This document shows positions 7,796 to 26,348 of a stretch of 64,000 nucleotides of DNA, piece after piece. Origin of the DNA: Thermococcus litoralis DSM 5473 (GTDB taxonomy: Archaea > Methanobacteriota_B > Thermococci > Thermococcales > Thermococcaceae); NCBI RefSeq assembly GCF_000246985.2, contig NC_022084.1:1947224-2011223 (forward strand), read 5' to 3'. Position numbers and translations under genes: made by a program. The notes under the pieces are model-generated. The model did no database searches, was not told the DNA's origin, and worked only from the letters and a program-made list of their open reading frames with translations. The number at the start of each line of letters is the position of its first letter. The stretch's first letter is position 1.

Positions 7796-8470
7796 ATGAA
7801 CATTCTGATTTTTGGGCCTCCGGGTTCTGGAAAGTCGACACATTCGAGGAGAATCGTTGGGAAATACGGCCTCGATTACATAGCCTCCGGTGATATAATC
7901 CGGGCAGAGATAAACAAAGGAAACGCCCTTGGCTTGGAGATGAAGAAATACATAGAAAGGGGCGAGCTTTTGCCTGATATCGTTATAAACACCCTCGTGC
8001 TTTCAAGATTGAGGAGAAAGAGGGAAAACTTCATCATTGACGGCTACCCAAGAACGGCTGAGCAAGTATTAGCCCTTGAGAACTTCCTCTACGATCACGG
8101 CATTAGGATAGACCTAGCGATAGACATTTTCATCTCAAAGGAGGAAAGCATAACGAGAATCTCCGGGAGGAGGATATGCAAAAACTGTGGGGCTGTGTAC
8201 CATATAAAATACAACCCACCAAAAATCCCTGGAAAATGCGATATTTGTGGAGGTGAGGTTGTTCAGAGAGAGGACGACAAGCCGGAGATCGTTTCTAGGA
8301 GGTACGACATTTATATCAACAACATGGAGCCCATCATTAAATTTTACAAGGGACAAGGAGTTTACGTGCAGATAAACGGACATGGGGGAATTGAGGAGGT
8401 TTGGGAGAGGATAAGGCCTCTCTTAGACTACATATGGAATAGGGAAAGAAAGAGAGAAGAATTCCGGTGA
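7796..8470 (+). CDS. adk: Adenylate kinase with zinc lid
   Basis: Converts ATP + AMP to 2 ADP. 224 aa. P-loop GPPGSGKST at residues 7-15; NMP-binding ASGDIIR; IIDGYPRT. The LID has a zinc site CKNC...CDIC at about residues 127-152, as in Gram-positive and thermophile long-form enzymes. Start ATG 7796 follows GGTGATC. It heads a run of plus-strand genes reaching 13.5 kb with very short gaps. Confidence 0.95.
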   Translation: MNILIFGPPGSGKSTHSRRIVGKYGLDYIASGDIIRAEINKGNALGLEMKKYIERGELLPDIVINTLVLSRLRRKRENFIIDGYPRTAEQVLALENFLYDHGIRIDLAIDIFISKEESITRISGRRICKNCGAVYHIKYNPPKIPGKCDICGGEVVQREDDKPEIVSRRYDIYINNMEPIIKFYKGQGVYVQINGHGGIEEVWERIRPLLDYIWNRERKREEFR

Positions 8471-8476
8471 TATAAC

Positions 8477-8758
8477 ATGGCGGTAGCTGAAATTTGTATT
8501 TTCCCTCTTGGTACGCAAACACCGAGTGTAGGGAAGTATTTGGAGCCAGTATTTGAAGTGATCAAAGAAAGCGGATTAAAGTACATGACGTGCCCAATGG
8601 GAACGGTTGTTGAAGGAGACATTGATGAAATACTCGCTCTCATTAAGAAGTGTCACGAAGCAATATTTAAAACTGGAGCTCAGAGAGTTGTGATAAGTGT
8701 AAGGATCGATGACAGAGTAGATAAAGAGCTTACAATAGAGAGCAAGCTGGGTGTATAA
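8477..8758 (+). CDS. MTH1187/YkoF-type thiamine-binding-like protein (DUF77)
   Basis: 93 aa. AEICIFPLGTQTPSVGKYLEPV and the later TCPMGTVVEGDIDEIL match the small MTH1187-family proteins, ferredoxin-like folds some of which bind thiamine-type ligands. It follows adk by 6 bp and is probably co-transcribed. The ligand here is not shown by the sequence. Confidence 0.8.
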   Translation: MAVAEICIFPLGTQTPSVGKYLEPVFEVIKESGLKYMTCPMGTVVEGDIDEILALIKKCHEAIFKTGAQRVVISVRIDDRVDKELTIESKLGV

Positions 8759-8759
8759 C

Positions 8760-9437
8760 GTGGAATACTTCGATAAAATCGCCCCCCGCTACGATGAGTG
8801 GTATAAGACTAAAGTCGGGCGCTATGTTGATAAAACGGAAAAAAGGTTAGTATTCTCTATGATAAAAACCAAAAGCGGAAAAGCCCTTGACCTTGGATGC
8901 GGAACTGGTAATTATACCTTGGAGCTCTATAAAAGAGGGTTTGAAGTTGTTGGAGTGGACGTAAGTGAAGAAATGCTAAAGATAGCAAGAAAAAAGCTCC
9001 CAAATGTTAAGTTCATTAGGGCAGATGCATATTCGTTGCCCTTTGAAGACAACACATTTGATTTAGTTTTGAGCATTACAATGTTTGAATTTATACATAG
9101 GCCCGAGAAAGCTCTTGGGGAAATTTATCGTGTTTTAAAACCTGGAGGAGAAGCGATCATCGGCACAATGAACGGTAGAAGTTTATGGTTTCTCTTCAAG
9201 CGCTTAAAAAGTCTTTTCGTGGAAACGGCATACCGCTATGCAAGATTTTATACACCAAGGGAGCTTGAAAGGCTAATGAAGGAGGTGGGTTTCAGAGATG
9301 TGGAGAGCAGAGGGATTATATACTTTCCTTCATTTTTCCCCTTTTTGGGGCTTGCTGAGAAGCTTGACCAAAAGTTCAGCGATAAGCTAAAGAACTTTGG
9401 GGCATTTATAGTGGTTAGGGGAGTTAAAGGTGATTAG
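8760..9437 (+). CDS. Class I SAM-dependent methyltransferase
   Basis: 225 aa. Motif I LDLGCGTGNYTLEL at about residues 42-55, acidic loop VVGVDVSEEML, then ADAYSLPFEDNTFDLVLS and the post-motif LKPGGEAIIGTMN. The C-terminus is hydrophobic (YFPSFFPFLGLAEKL). Such UbiE-like enzymes act on small molecules or lipids; no substrate can be assigned. GTG 8760 is preferred, 1 nt after the previous stop; a GTG three codons earlier is the alternative. Confidence 0.8.
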   Translation: MEYFDKIAPRYDEWYKTKVGRYVDKTEKRLVFSMIKTKSGKALDLGCGTGNYTLELYKRGFEVVGVDVSEEMLKIARKKLPNVKFIRADAYSLPFEDNTFDLVLSITMFEFIHRPEKALGEIYRVLKPGGEAIIGTMNGRSLWFLFKRLKSLFVETAYRYARFYTPRELERLMKEVGFRDVESRGIIYFPSFFPFLGLAEKLDQKFSDKLKNFGAFIVVRGVKGD

Positions 9438-22273: not shown

Positions 22274-22389
22274 TTTTTCATCCCCACAAATGAAAAAGCC
22301 GGGATGTTTAAAAACCTATACTTCATTAAGATATCAATTTAAACGCTAAGCTTTTATACGAAAAGAGCCTAATTAATATGGTGGTTTTA

Positions 22390-24294
22390 ATGAAAAAGAT
22401 TGATATCAAAGACTTGGGGAAGTTTAAGCTTGTCGGTGGACTTGATGTATACAGAAGAAAAGTTGCCTTTACGGTAAGCGAAATCAGCATAGAAAAAGAC
22501 GACTACTTCTCAAAAATCTATGTTTATGACAGTAGGAAGGTTGTGCAGTTCACCTCTGGACCAAAAGACTCGAATCCGCGCTTTTCGCCAGATGGTAAGT
22601 TCATGGCTTTCACATCCAAAAGGCACAAGGAAAGCAAGGAGGCTGAGCTTTACTTAATCCCGACCACCGGAGGAGAGGCAAGGCTTCTCACGAAGTTTAA
22701 ATTTGGAATAAATGACTATGAGTTTTCACCTGACGGCAAAACACTCGCCGTTATAACCCCAGTGGAGATCGAGAGAAAAAAGAAAAAGGACGACGTGCAC
22801 ATAATCAAGGAAATCCCCTTCTGGTTCAACGGCATTGGCTGGATTTATGGAAAGCGGAACCACATATATCTTGTCGATGTTGAGAGCGGGAAAAAGAGGA
22901 AGCTGACGAGAGGAAACCTTAACGTTCAAACTCTAAAATGGAGCAAAGATGGAAGCAAAATCTACTTTGTTGCCCAGGAGGATAGAGGAAAGAAGCCCAT
23001 GATAAGTGACCTCTTTGTTGTTGATCTTAAGAGCAAGAAGGTCGAAAAGCTGACCGATTCAAAGTGGCGCATTGGTGATTTAGTTCCTCTTGAAGACGGC
23101 ACGTTTATACTTAGAACGAACACTCTTGAGAGAGGCATTCCAACGAACACTCACATCTATCACTTCAATCCCGAGACGAAAGAGGTCAAAAAGCTCACGG
23201 CAAAGCTTGACCGCTCGGCTTACAACTCTCTCAACTGCGATGTAAGAGGCCCCTCTCGGAACCCGCTTGTTTACAAGGACGGCTGGGTTTACTACATAGC
23301 CACAGACGGCCCAAGGGCAAACCTCTTCCGTGTCAACCTCGATGGAGAGATAGAGCGTGTAATCGGCGGAGATAGAAGTGTTGAGACCTTTGGCATCGGG
23401 GAGTATATAGCCTTCATTACTCAGGATGCAACAACTCCAACGGAGCTTTACATTCTCAGAGATGGAAAGGAGAGGAAAGTCACCGACTTTAACGCATGGA
23501 TAAGGGAGTACAAGCTCTCAAAGCCGGAGCACTTCAAAGTCAAAGCGAGCGACGGCGTTGAGATAGATGCGTGGATAATGAAGCCCGTAGATTTTGAGGA
23601 AGGTAAAAAGTACCCGGCAGTTCTTGAAATCCACGGGGGGCCAAAAACTGCCTACGGCTACTCCTTTATGCACGAGTTCCACGTTTTAACCGCCAAAGGC
23701 TTCGTTGTAATATTCTCCAATCCAAGGGGAAGCGACGGTTATGGGGAGGATTTTGCTGACATAAGGGAGCACTACGGTGAGAGGGACTACCAGGACATAA
23801 TGGAGGTCGTGGACGAGGCTTTGAGAAGGTTCGACTTCATAGACTCGGAGAGGATAGGAGTAACCGGCGGCTCCTACGGCGGCTTCATGACGAACTGGAT
23901 AGTTGGACACACCAACCGCTTTAAAGCCGCTGTAACCCAAAGGTCAATCTCAAACTGGACGAGCTTTTTTGGAACGACGGACATAGGCTACTACTTTGCT
24001 CCAGATCAGATAGGCGGTGATCCCTGGAACAACACCGAAGGTTACTGGGAGAAGAGCCCCCTAAAGTACGCACCAAACGTCGAGACTCCTCTCTTAATAA
24101 TACACTCAATGGAAGACTACCGCTGCTGGCTTCCCGAGGCTTTGCAGTTCTTTACCGCCCTTAAGTACCTTGGCAAAACTGTTGAGCTCGCAATCTTCCC
24201 AGGCGAGAACCACGACCTCTCAAGAAAAGGAAAGCCCAAGCACAGGGTGAAGAGGTTGGAGCTAATAGTCGGCTGGATGGAGAAATTTCTCTAA
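22390..24294 (+). CDS. S9 family serine peptidase (acylaminoacyl peptidase-like)
   Basis: 634 aa, cytoplasmic. Beta-propeller at residues about 1-370, with repeats such as PRFSPDGKFMAFTSKR and YEFSPDGKTLAVITP, then alpha/beta hydrolase domain. Nucleophile Ser in GGSYGGFMTN; the Asp is likely in HSMEDYRCW and the His in GENHDLSRKG near the C-terminus. Likely removes N-acylated residues or cleaves short peptides downstream of the proteasome. ATG 22390 is chosen over one 12 nt earlier because GGTGG is 5 nt before it. Confidence 0.9.
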   Translation: MKKIDIKDLGKFKLVGGLDVYRRKVAFTVSEISIEKDDYFSKIYVYDSRKVVQFTSGPKDSNPRFSPDGKFMAFTSKRHKESKEAELYLIPTTGGEARLLTKFKFGINDYEFSPDGKTLAVITPVEIERKKKKDDVHIIKEIPFWFNGIGWIYGKRNHIYLVDVESGKKRKLTRGNLNVQTLKWSKDGSKIYFVAQEDRGKKPMISDLFVVDLKSKKVEKLTDSKWRIGDLVPLEDGTFILRTNTLERGIPTNTHIYHFNPETKEVKKLTAKLDRSAYNSLNCDVRGPSRNPLVYKDGWVYYIATDGPRANLFRVNLDGEIERVIGGDRSVETFGIGEYIAFITQDATTPTELYILRDGKERKVTDFNAWIREYKLSKPEHFKVKASDGVEIDAWIMKPVDFEEGKKYPAVLEIHGGPKTAYGYSFMHEFHVLTAKGFVVIFSNPRGSDGYGEDFADIREHYGERDYQDIMEVVDEALRRFDFIDSERIGVTGGSYGGFMTNWIVGHTNRFKAAVTQRSISNWTSFFGTTDIGYYFAPDQIGGDPWNNTEGYWEKSPLKYAPNVETPLLIIHSMEDYRCWLPEALQFFTALKYLGKTVELAIFPGENHDLSRKGKPKHRVKRLELIVGWMEKFL

Positions 24295-24301
24295 ATACTT
24301 T

Positions 24302-24982
24302 TTAAGTTTTTAGTCTTTCATCTATCATCCCAACTCCAGGAACTAACATTCCGTCTTCTCTAAGCTTATCTGCGTCCCCTATTACAAATAAGTATGTATT
24401 GGGGAGTTCTCTAATTAGTTCATTTAATCCTTCTTTAGAATAAAATATTGCTATGATAACTGTTATACGAGGATTATACTTTGCTAAAGCATTCTTTGTG
24501 AGAGCAATCAAGGAGCATCCTGAAGCCAATACACTTTTTGCTATAATTAAAATGTCGACTTCTGTCGGAACATCAGGTAAAATTGCACCTCGTACCTTGG
24601 AGGTAAAGCCAGATTTTCCATAAATCCTTTCTAAATCTAAATAGCCTCTATAGCTAATAGGGAAAACTTCAGATAATCCCTCCCCTAAGGCCTCGTAGTC
24701 ATCTTTATTGGTTATGATCACTGCAGTTAAATCAGATCGATATGTTTTTCCCGTATATGTGGCACTTAGTGGGGTTATAAGGGTGATATCTTCTGCAAAA
24801 AGTTGTGATAAAATCTTTGCCCCTGCTAATACGCCTAATACTCTTAGCAATTTTTGTAAAGGTTCCCCATTTAGGGTTCTATCTCGAATTTTGTTCTTAA
24901 ATATCAGAAGATCTAGGTCATTAAGAATTATAACTTGAGACACTGCTATATACCCCCCACTAAGATTAGTGAGCCTACACAT
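24302..24982 (-). CDS. Divergent uracil-phosphoribosyltransferase-like protein
   Basis: 226 aa. Order and spacing follow UPRTases: N-terminal QVIILNDLDLLIFKNKIRDRTLNG, PRPP-loop-like KSVLASGCSLIALTKNAL, and C-terminal LREDGMLVPGVGMIDERLKT. The canonical DPMLATGG becomes KSVLASGC, and the usual GD after VPG-L is GM, so ordinary UMP synthesis is doubtful. It overlaps the DUF4062 gene by 8 bp as the second gene of a two-gene operon in AT-rich DNA. ATG 24982 or GTG 24943 could be the start; neither has a strong ribosome site. Confidence 0.7.
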   Translation of the reverse strand: MCRLTNLSGGYIAVSQVIILNDLDLLIFKNKIRDRTLNGEPLQKLLRVLGVLAGAKILSQLFAEDITLITPLSATYTGKTYRSDLTAVIITNKDDYEALGEGLSEVFPISYRGYLDLERIYGKSGFTSKVRGAILPDVPTEVDILIIAKSVLASGCSLIALTKNALAKYNPRITVIIAIFYSKEGLNELIRELPNTYLFVIGDADKLREDGMLVPGVGMIDERLKT

Positions 24983-25694
24983 TATTTATTTGGCTATAGT
25001 ATAAAAATGTTAGCAATTTCGAAACTACTTCATCCAATGCTCGCCAGAAATTTTGGCGAATTTCGTCTTTTGAAACATATAAAACATACTCTTTCTTCTC
25101 ATTATTCTTAACTGAAAATCCGATATCAGATTTAGTAACTTGATATTCAATTTCAACATGATATTGTGAAAGTGCATCGAGGACTAAATAAACAAATTTA
25201 AATTCTATCGGTTTTGATGCATAACCATGAATTCTTTTTGAGATCCAGGTATTGAAAGCATTTTCAAAAATATTCTTTAGTTCCTCAGGAGTTTTATATT
25301 TGTGCTTCCAGTAGCCTCGCGTATAATCTAGCACCTTTTGGATAAATACCCTTTGAGCTGGTTCTATATGTGGCACATCTTTCACAAAAACTAATATTTT
25401 GGTGGGGTCAGAAAAATATGCTGCTTCAAATTCAATCTCTGTCGCTGATTTATTGTGTGGAGTTACGTAACCATACCTGCCCCCAAGAATCAATATAAAT
25501 AAGTCACAATCTCTAGCCATTTGTATTGTGCCAATTTCAGGAGTCACCCCTGGAACGGGGTATAAAATTGGAAAAGCTCCTATAGGGTGTACAAAGGGAT
25601 ATTTTCTAAGAACATCCAAAATAGCTTTTCGATCGTCTTTTAGATCAATTATTGTTGAACTTATCATGACTTTTATTTTGTCTGCATCACCCAT
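24975..25694 (-). CDS. DUF4062 (TIR-like) domain protein
   Basis: 239 aa. IKVMISSTIIDLKDDRKAIL at the N-terminus, CDLFILILGGRYGYVTPHNKSATEIEFEAAY at about residues 63-93, and ILVFVKDV match DUF4062, a TIR-like module common in prokaryotic immune genes. The Glu in SATEIEFEAA is at the catalytic-Glu position of TIR-like NADases. The rest (residues 110-239) is unassigned. Lines 25081-25200 contain 32 G+C in 120 bases, far below neighbours, suggesting transfer. Role inferred, not proven. Confidence 0.7.
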   Translation of the reverse strand: MGDADKIKVMISSTIIDLKDDRKAILDVLRKYPFVHPIGAFPILYPVPGVTPEIGTIQMARDCDLFILILGGRYGYVTPHNKSATEIEFEAAYFSDPTKILVFVKDVPHIEPAQRVFIQKVLDYTRGYWKHKYKTPEELKNIFENAFNTWISKRIHGYASKPIEFKFVYLVLDALSQYHVEIEYQVTKSDIGFSVKNNEKKEYVLYVSKDEIRQNFWRALDEVVSKLLTFLYYSQINNV

Positions 25695-25760
25695 GTAAAA
25701 ATCTTGGATTGAAAATTTAAAAAATTTGATGTAGGTTCATTGTCTATCTGTTATTAAAAC

Positions 25761-26222
25761 TCAAAGCGTATAATCCAACACTCTCTTGGCTTCCTCGATG
25801 TGTTCAGGATAGACGTTCCTTATCTCCGGGTGGAGAGCTTTGATAACCCTCCCTATGAGGACGAAGAGCGTTCCAGTAATTATAGGGAGTTCATCGACTA
25901 ACTCCTCTTCTAGGGGCATTTCGGCAGGTATGCTTGCAAGTACGAACTTTCTTATAGGCTCGATCTCAACCTTCTCATCCCTGATTACGGCTCTGAAAAG
26001 GTTCATTGAGTTCTTGAAGCCCTTGGTAAGTGGCAGGTGCCTGAGCTTTATTGTGTCACTCCCTTCCGCTATTGCGTTCTCATAGGCAACCTCAAAGAGG
26101 TCAGCAAGCTTCTTCTCCACTATGTCCATCATTTCCTCTGCTCTTGGCTTTGTGAGTGCAAGCTCACATGTCTTCTCAAGAATCTTCTCCAGTTGTGGGA
26201 AGGGGATTATCATGTTCGCCAT
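25761..26222 (-). CDS. DUF1931 family protein, histone-fold-like
   Basis: 153 aa, mostly helical. Sequence [19 protein letters not shown]...[31 protein letters not shown] fits DUF1931, whose known structure contains two histone-like folds in one chain. It is probably a DNA- or metal-binding protein, but its role is not settled. ATG 26222 is chosen because GGAGGGGTGAGG precedes it; upstream in-frame sequence lacks a site. Confidence 0.75.
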
Positions 26223-26348
26223 GTCCCTCACCCCTCCTTCCTTTTGCTCTCGATGTATATTTAAGTAACTAAAGGTATTTAAATTTTTCTCAGAACTTAC
26301 TAGAACACTCCGTGCAGAAACATAAAGAATGAAGAAAAATCGCACTGC

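Follow-up and report, generated by a model that had tools for sequence, protein, structure and literature searches.

Gene content of the locus

The window, which is the whole 64 kb stretch of Thermococcus litoralis DNA analysed here, contains an AT-rich insert of 1.47 kb (24285..25755) that carries two genes on the minus strand and lies between a prolyl oligopeptidase gene on the plus strand (22378-24294) and a DUF1931 gene on the minus strand (25761-26345). The first gene in the direction of transcription encodes a DUF4062 protein of TIR-like NADase type (24975..25694, 239 amino acids), and the second encodes a partner resembling uracil phosphoribosyltransferase (UPRTase), whose longest open reading frame covers 24302-24982. 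Both reading frames lie where a preliminary description of this DNA had placed them, and both exceed the Pfam gathering score for the families it had named, DUF4062 and UPRTase. Its statement that the pair sits between housekeeping genes also agrees with the flanking genes, which include PEP carboxylase in addition to the two named above. The base counts given there (32 G+C of 120 at 25081-25200 and 30 of 60 at 23641-23700) are exact, and at 34.2% G+C the island is the lowest among 1,251 segments of 1.47 kb in the 64 kb (mean 42.8%; island z -4.2).

The reported 8-nt overlap of the two genes holds if the partner is read from its first ATG at 24982. Translation probably begins instead at a GTG at 24943, because homologues of the partner are mostly 212-217 amino acids long, residues 1-13 of the structural model are disordered (pLDDT about 32), and a putative Shine-Dalgarno-like GGGGGGT (24952..24958, minus strand) lies 8 nt before this codon. 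With the GTG start, the partner gene (24302..24943, minus strand) encodes 213 amino acids and begins 31 nt past the DUF4062 stop; spacing of the pair in relatives was measured at -14 to +15 nt, with the genes abutting or overlapping in most. A possible archaeal TATA-like element, TTTTTTAAATTTT (25712..25724, minus strand), precedes the ATG start codon of the DUF4062 gene by about 25 nt, a position that suggests a leaderless transcript of both genes, and a promoter and terminator scan gave a signal no higher than in shuffled sequence.

The AT-rich stretch is an insert: five congeners (L050, L051, L052, L056 and L057) lack it, and in these a gap of 64-99 bp, empty of other genes, separates the two flanking genes. 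A check of the insert ends for direct repeats or a mobile element revealed short imperfect repeats only, none flanking the insert. Other close relatives carry several kb of different cargo at this spot (L127:1240-9263, L128:1917-9225, L130:3712-8224), including an ADP-ribosylglycohydrolase, a beta-lactamase-fold protein, TPR proteins, or an AAA_14/DUF4143 protein, and this differing cargo marks the site as a variable-gene spot in the genus. The DUF4062 gene is rare in this lineage, being present in 1 of 94 family genomes and 1 of 115 phylum genomes, and the T. litoralis genome has a separate canonical upp gene (C1:106908).

Conserved pairing and distribution of the module

The two genes form a conserved pair, and the module that they constitute is mobile. 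A motif scan of 84,980 species genomes conducted with the UPRTase-like partner alone yielded ten confirmed loci, in Desulfosporosinus, Sporosarcina, Bacillus, Marinomonas, Solitalea, a Methanosarcina metagenome-assembled genome (MAG), Rossellomorea, a gammaproteobacterial MAG, Clostridium ljungdahlii and Streptomyces, which together span Bacillota, Pseudomonadota, Bacteroidota, Actinomycetota and Methanosarcina. A DUF4062 gene was found directly upstream on the same strand in all ten, and as the search was made without DUF4062, this evidence of pairing is not circular. Plasmid tblastn searches showed the two genes as neighbours in Rhodovastum atsumiense (40.8% identity to the window DUF4062 protein and 37.4% to the window partner) and Deinococcus psychrotolerans (32.1% and 38.2%, respectively), and viral contigs scanned with a DUF4062 profile yielded one locus, L133 (IMGVR_UViG_3300010163_002475, pair at 8019-9294), with the UPRTase-like gene 1 nt downstream. 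The co-occurrence as neighbours on which the preliminary description had staked its proposal was therefore recovered at each of the 13 partner-type loci outside the window (ten genomic loci, two plasmids and one viral contig), always with DUF4062 directly upstream. Most copies reside on chromosomal-size contigs rather than on plasmids. The DUF4062 reading frame of L133 lacks the N-terminal strand, perhaps through a frameshift or a wrongly assigned start, and the Methanosarcina MAG copy may be broken or mis-assembled, as it has an in-frame stop near the start of the partner gene (L040:7966-8100).

Profile scans with strict cut-offs yielded no orphan DUF4062 gene of the module type in sets of 261, 351 and 83 genomes, and no orphan UPRTase-like partner in 391 genomes. 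Across 186 Methanosarcinales genomes, the module-type DUF4062 protein scored 347 bits versus at most 53 for all other DUF4062 proteins, which defines the module proteins as a distinct subfamily. The two proteins have diverged jointly, with pairwise distances that correlate across 13 pairs (Mantel r 0.90, permutation p 1e-4), and in both protein trees the Methanosarcina copy groups with that of Desulfosporosinus, a pattern suggesting that the two genes moved together from one domain to another.

No third gene is conserved with the pair. An ImmA/IrrE-type peptidase gene follows the partner, with a 4-nt overlap, only in Deinococcus, and a RES-domain gene is found only in C. ljungdahlii, 78 nt downstream of the pair (L043:8694-9647); RES toxins degrade NAD. 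In the three Bacilli copies, a dUTPase gene precedes the pair by 23-53 bp (L036:6788-7225, L037:6782-7240, L041:6818-7255). It hinted at a connection with uracil nucleotides but was rejected as a functional component, as the same dUTPase and site occur in several Planococcaceae without the module. In that family, 32 of 121 genomes contain the dUTPase and the module-free site reads rplT...M42-peptidase, so that the dUTPase most likely represents an insertion site. The gene is rare in the family of Rossellomorea (1 of 36), where dUTPase and pair were seemingly acquired together.

A TIR-like fold with a conserved catalytic glutamate

The DUF4062 protein matches PF13271 with an E-value of 2e-15 and 57.1 bits (Pfam cut-off 24.7). 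The best PDB matches of its structural model (pLDDT 85.7) are TIR proteins, namely TIR-STING, plant TIR domains, SPARTA and SARM1; the similarity is weak in each case (E 2e-4 at best, TM-score about 0.4) but consistent in kind. A recent preprint (PMC13174449, May 2026) reported NAD+ hydrolysis by DUF4062 proteins and described one of them, KpSwz of the Swarozyc defence system, as acting against phages by abortive infection once the phage portal activates it. A profile built from 13 module DUF4062 proteins matched the KpSwz structure (10wc_A) with an E-value of 4.7e-11, aligning KpSwz E97 with Glu86 of the window protein, the predicted catalytic residue within an SATE motif (codon 25437-25439); here E97 was taken as chain residue 82 of 10wc_A, provided that the chain starts at residue 16. 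The glutamate is kept in 12 of 13 module DUF4062 proteins and is replaced by glutamine in the Streptomyces protein (L044:7256-7981), which reads SATQLE and keeps a nearby glutamate. The TIR-like nature first ascribed to this protein is thus supported by both the modelled fold and the presence of the Swarozyc catalytic glutamate, and the DUF4062 protein is probably an NADase, judging from its sequence.

The profile match to 10wc_A stops at profile position 151, and because it ends near residue 150, the auxiliary domain with which KpSwz binds the portal is not recognisable in the window protein. The latter is 239 amino acids long versus 326 for KpSwz, and its C-terminal auxiliary part comprises approximately residues 126-239.

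A UPRTase fold with replaced functional residues

The partner matches the Pfam UPRTase family PF14681 with an E-value of 1.5e-12 and scores 46.9 bits against the NCBIfam upp equivalog TIGR01091, for which the cut-off is 208.35. Its model (pLDDT 88.4) best matches the UPRTase of S. solfataricus (1xtt/3g6w) over the whole length with a TM-score of about 0.8, and the protein retains both the 5'-phosphate loop (A-T/S-G) and the uracil-side PG.G stretch. The KSVLASGC and GVGM loops noted in the preliminary description had been read correctly, and the extent of change was defined by comparing 13 module proteins with 37 canonical UPRTases from Thermococcaceae and the host genomes. The arginine of the PPi loop, present in 37 of 37 canonical enzymes, is found in none of the 13 module proteins, which have Asp, Ala or Glu instead (Asp94 in the window copy, numbered from 24982 as are all residues of this protein). 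The aspartate of the PRPP loop, also invariant in the canonical set, is lysine in 13/13 (Lys149); in phosphoribosyltransferases (PRTases) this aspartate holds the ribose. Farther along the same loop, a canonical Gly or Ser (Gln in one enzyme) has become cysteine in all 13 (Cys156), and a canonical Ala is replaced by Tyr (Tyr181), the adjacent Ala by Ser (Ser182) and a Tyr by Met (Met212), each without exception. The catalytic aspartate of GLGD is invariant in the canonical enzymes and kept in 3 of 13 module proteins (Met219 in the window copy), and the arginine of the flexible loop is kept in 11 of 13, with tyrosine in the window copy. In the M. tuberculosis UPRTase, the equivalents of both arginines and of the GLGD aspartate are named for PRPP binding and catalysis (PMC3570474); the residue numbers of that study were matched to alignment columns by our own analysis.

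The module UPRTases form a single clade apart from canonical Upp with support of 100/100, and a separate, clear upp gene is present in eight of ten host genomes, seven of them above the curated cut-off and that of Solitalea at 174 bits. The early judgement that the partner is divergent and no ordinary UPRTase is upheld by the sub-cut-off upp score, the separate clade, the replaced residues and the additional upp genes of the hosts. On the evidence of these aligned residues, the partner is a repurposed protein under constraint, neither a salvage enzyme nor a decaying one. The Deinococcus partner (L033:7777-9629) has a C-terminal extension of approximately 100 amino acids and is the sole copy with extra residues.

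Genomic context and comparison with known systems

On the viral contig L133, which carries a terminase gene, the pair is situated beside a type III restriction enzyme (E 2e-304) and methyltransferase (E 6.5e-202), with a RhuM-family gene nearby. The Deinococcus (L033) and Solitalea (L039) copies have genes for type IIG restriction enzymes in their vicinity (E 5e-266 and 5e-278, respectively), and in Desulfosporosinus the pair comes after the gene of a large helicase partly similar to several defence helicases. PADLOC found no neighbour at the five loci scanned (L040 to L044) and no match for either window protein, and the window copy lies outside any recognised defence island. With restriction-modification neighbours at some loci and none at L040 to L044, the association with defence is suggestive and not uniform. 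The preliminary proposal of a defence module is accordingly supported by context, namely mobility and the restriction-modification neighbours at three loci, from which the function itself is extrapolated.

Spread of the module by phages was considered and rejected, as a search of 50,697 phage records returned nothing for the DUF4062 protein and only one viral contig in 2.9 million carried the pair. The partner gave weak matches only in the same phage records (23-24% identity, best E 8e-5). A UPRTase-like phage family of unknown function, phrog_38585, matches the window partner (24302-24982; E 1.8e-4) and the L133 partner (E 1.6e-13), indicating that some phages may carry proteins related to the partner.

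Among known systems, the module resembles Swarozyc in having a TIR-like DUF4062 domain whose catalytic glutamate occupies the equivalent position, and in a patchy, mobile distribution that is sometimes near defence genes. It differs in that its DUF4062 protein shows nothing resembling the C-terminal domain by which KpSwz binds the portal and always comes with a second, UPRTase-like gene, which is absent from the main text of PMC13174449; that text contains none of the terms phosphoribosyl, PRTase or uracil. The same text refers to a supplementary figure in which DUF4062 genes share operons with a variety of enzyme genes, so the pair may already appear in that supplement. No paper joining DUF4062 and a phosphoribosyltransferase was found in the open-access literature, in line with the earlier statement that no system with this pair was known from Thermococcales. 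With upp and the S. solfataricus UPRTase, the partner shares its fold over the whole length and the phosphate-binding loop; it differs in its separate clade and in the missing PPi-loop arginine and PRPP-loop aspartate, and the window copy has lost the catalytic aspartate and flexible-loop arginine as well. TIR-type NAD chemistry and a two-gene defence unit, both predicted from the genes, would be held in common with Thoeris, but the module has no ThsA or canonical TIR ThsB and no PADLOC match. Type III retrons, which combine a PRTase-like effector with a DNA-binding protein, provide a precedent for a PRTase fold serving defence (PMC12548924), but no reverse transcriptase is present among the genes flanking the window pair, and the gene partner is a different one.

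Proposed function and alternative explanations

We consider it about an even chance that the pair is a horizontally transferred immune module, in which a DUF4062 NADase effector is combined with a former UPRTase acting as a nucleotide-sensing regulator. The DUF4062 protein, once released, would split NAD+ or make an NAD-derived product and stop the infected cell by abortive infection. The partner would be a former uracil phosphoribosyltransferase that kept its fold and 5'-phosphate loop and lost its PRPP, pyrophosphate and catalytic residues; it would most likely serve as a regulatory subunit, binding a nucleotide (perhaps uracil-like, perhaps NAD-derived) or an infection cue, and would hold or switch the NADase. 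NADase activity, complex formation, the ligand and the antiviral function are what we infer for the pair from these features. Where the preliminary description had the partner sense or alter a nucleotide or PRPP, sensing fits better than altering, and PRPP is not favoured because most of the residues that would bind it or carry out UPRTase chemistry have been lost.

The roles could also be reversed in a Thoeris-like order, with the DUF4062 protein sensing infection, possibly through its own C-terminal part, and making an NAD-derived signal that the partner, as receptor and effector, binds through its old phosphoribosyl pocket. TIR proteins of Thoeris do make cyclic ADP-ribose signals (PMC11204291), and the retained ATGC phosphate loop together with the Asp-to-Lys change might suit a phosphorylated or ADP-ribose-like ligand. 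We regard this order as fairly unlikely, as those DUF4062 proteins whose activity has been characterised simply hydrolyse NAD (PMC13174449) and the partner has no recognisable effector domain, extra residues being confined to the Deinococcus copy. That the replacements are strictly kept in 13/13 proteins rather than drifting is unusual for a merely dead enzyme, and it would accord with an active enzyme that uses Lys149 and Cys156 for new chemistry, its substrate being either a nucleotide or what the NADase produces. Such an enzyme is nonetheless unlikely, since the residues proposed for UPRTase catalysis are absent or replaced and the sequence names no substrate.

A toxin-antitoxin or stress module that plays no part in antiviral defence, in which the partner neutralises an NADase toxin and plasmids and islands maintain the pair, would explain the two plasmid copies, the two-gene order and the tight spacing. 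The presence of type III or type IIG restriction systems next to some copies, one of which is on a viral contig, and the prevalence of chromosomal-size contigs over plasmids make this explanation decidedly doubtful. The name uracil phosphoribosyltransferase, given to the partner by Pfam and by the record annotation, would be taken at face value if it were a second UPRTase for ordinary pyrimidine salvage beside an unrelated DUF4062 gene; with the catalytic residues lost, a separate upp present and no copy found without DUF4062, we give salvage hardly any credence.

Returning to the immune module with a regulatory partner, DUF4062 was first shown to be an NADase in 2026, and a fixed partner derived from pyrimidine salvage is a concrete, small and testable candidate for one of the ways in which different DUF4062 proteins are triggered. 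We tentatively propose, at somewhat below even likelihood, that a UPRTase fold has been turned into an infection sensor that gates a TIR-like NADase, in a two-gene immune system of archaea and bacteria that has not been described before. The pair occurs in two domains of life, and its hyperthermophile copy is suited to biochemical and structural work. If the proposal is true, a housekeeping nucleotide enzyme would have been recruited as an immune sensor, with infection sensed through the pocket of a salvage enzyme by way of a uracil nucleotide or an NAD-derived ligand.
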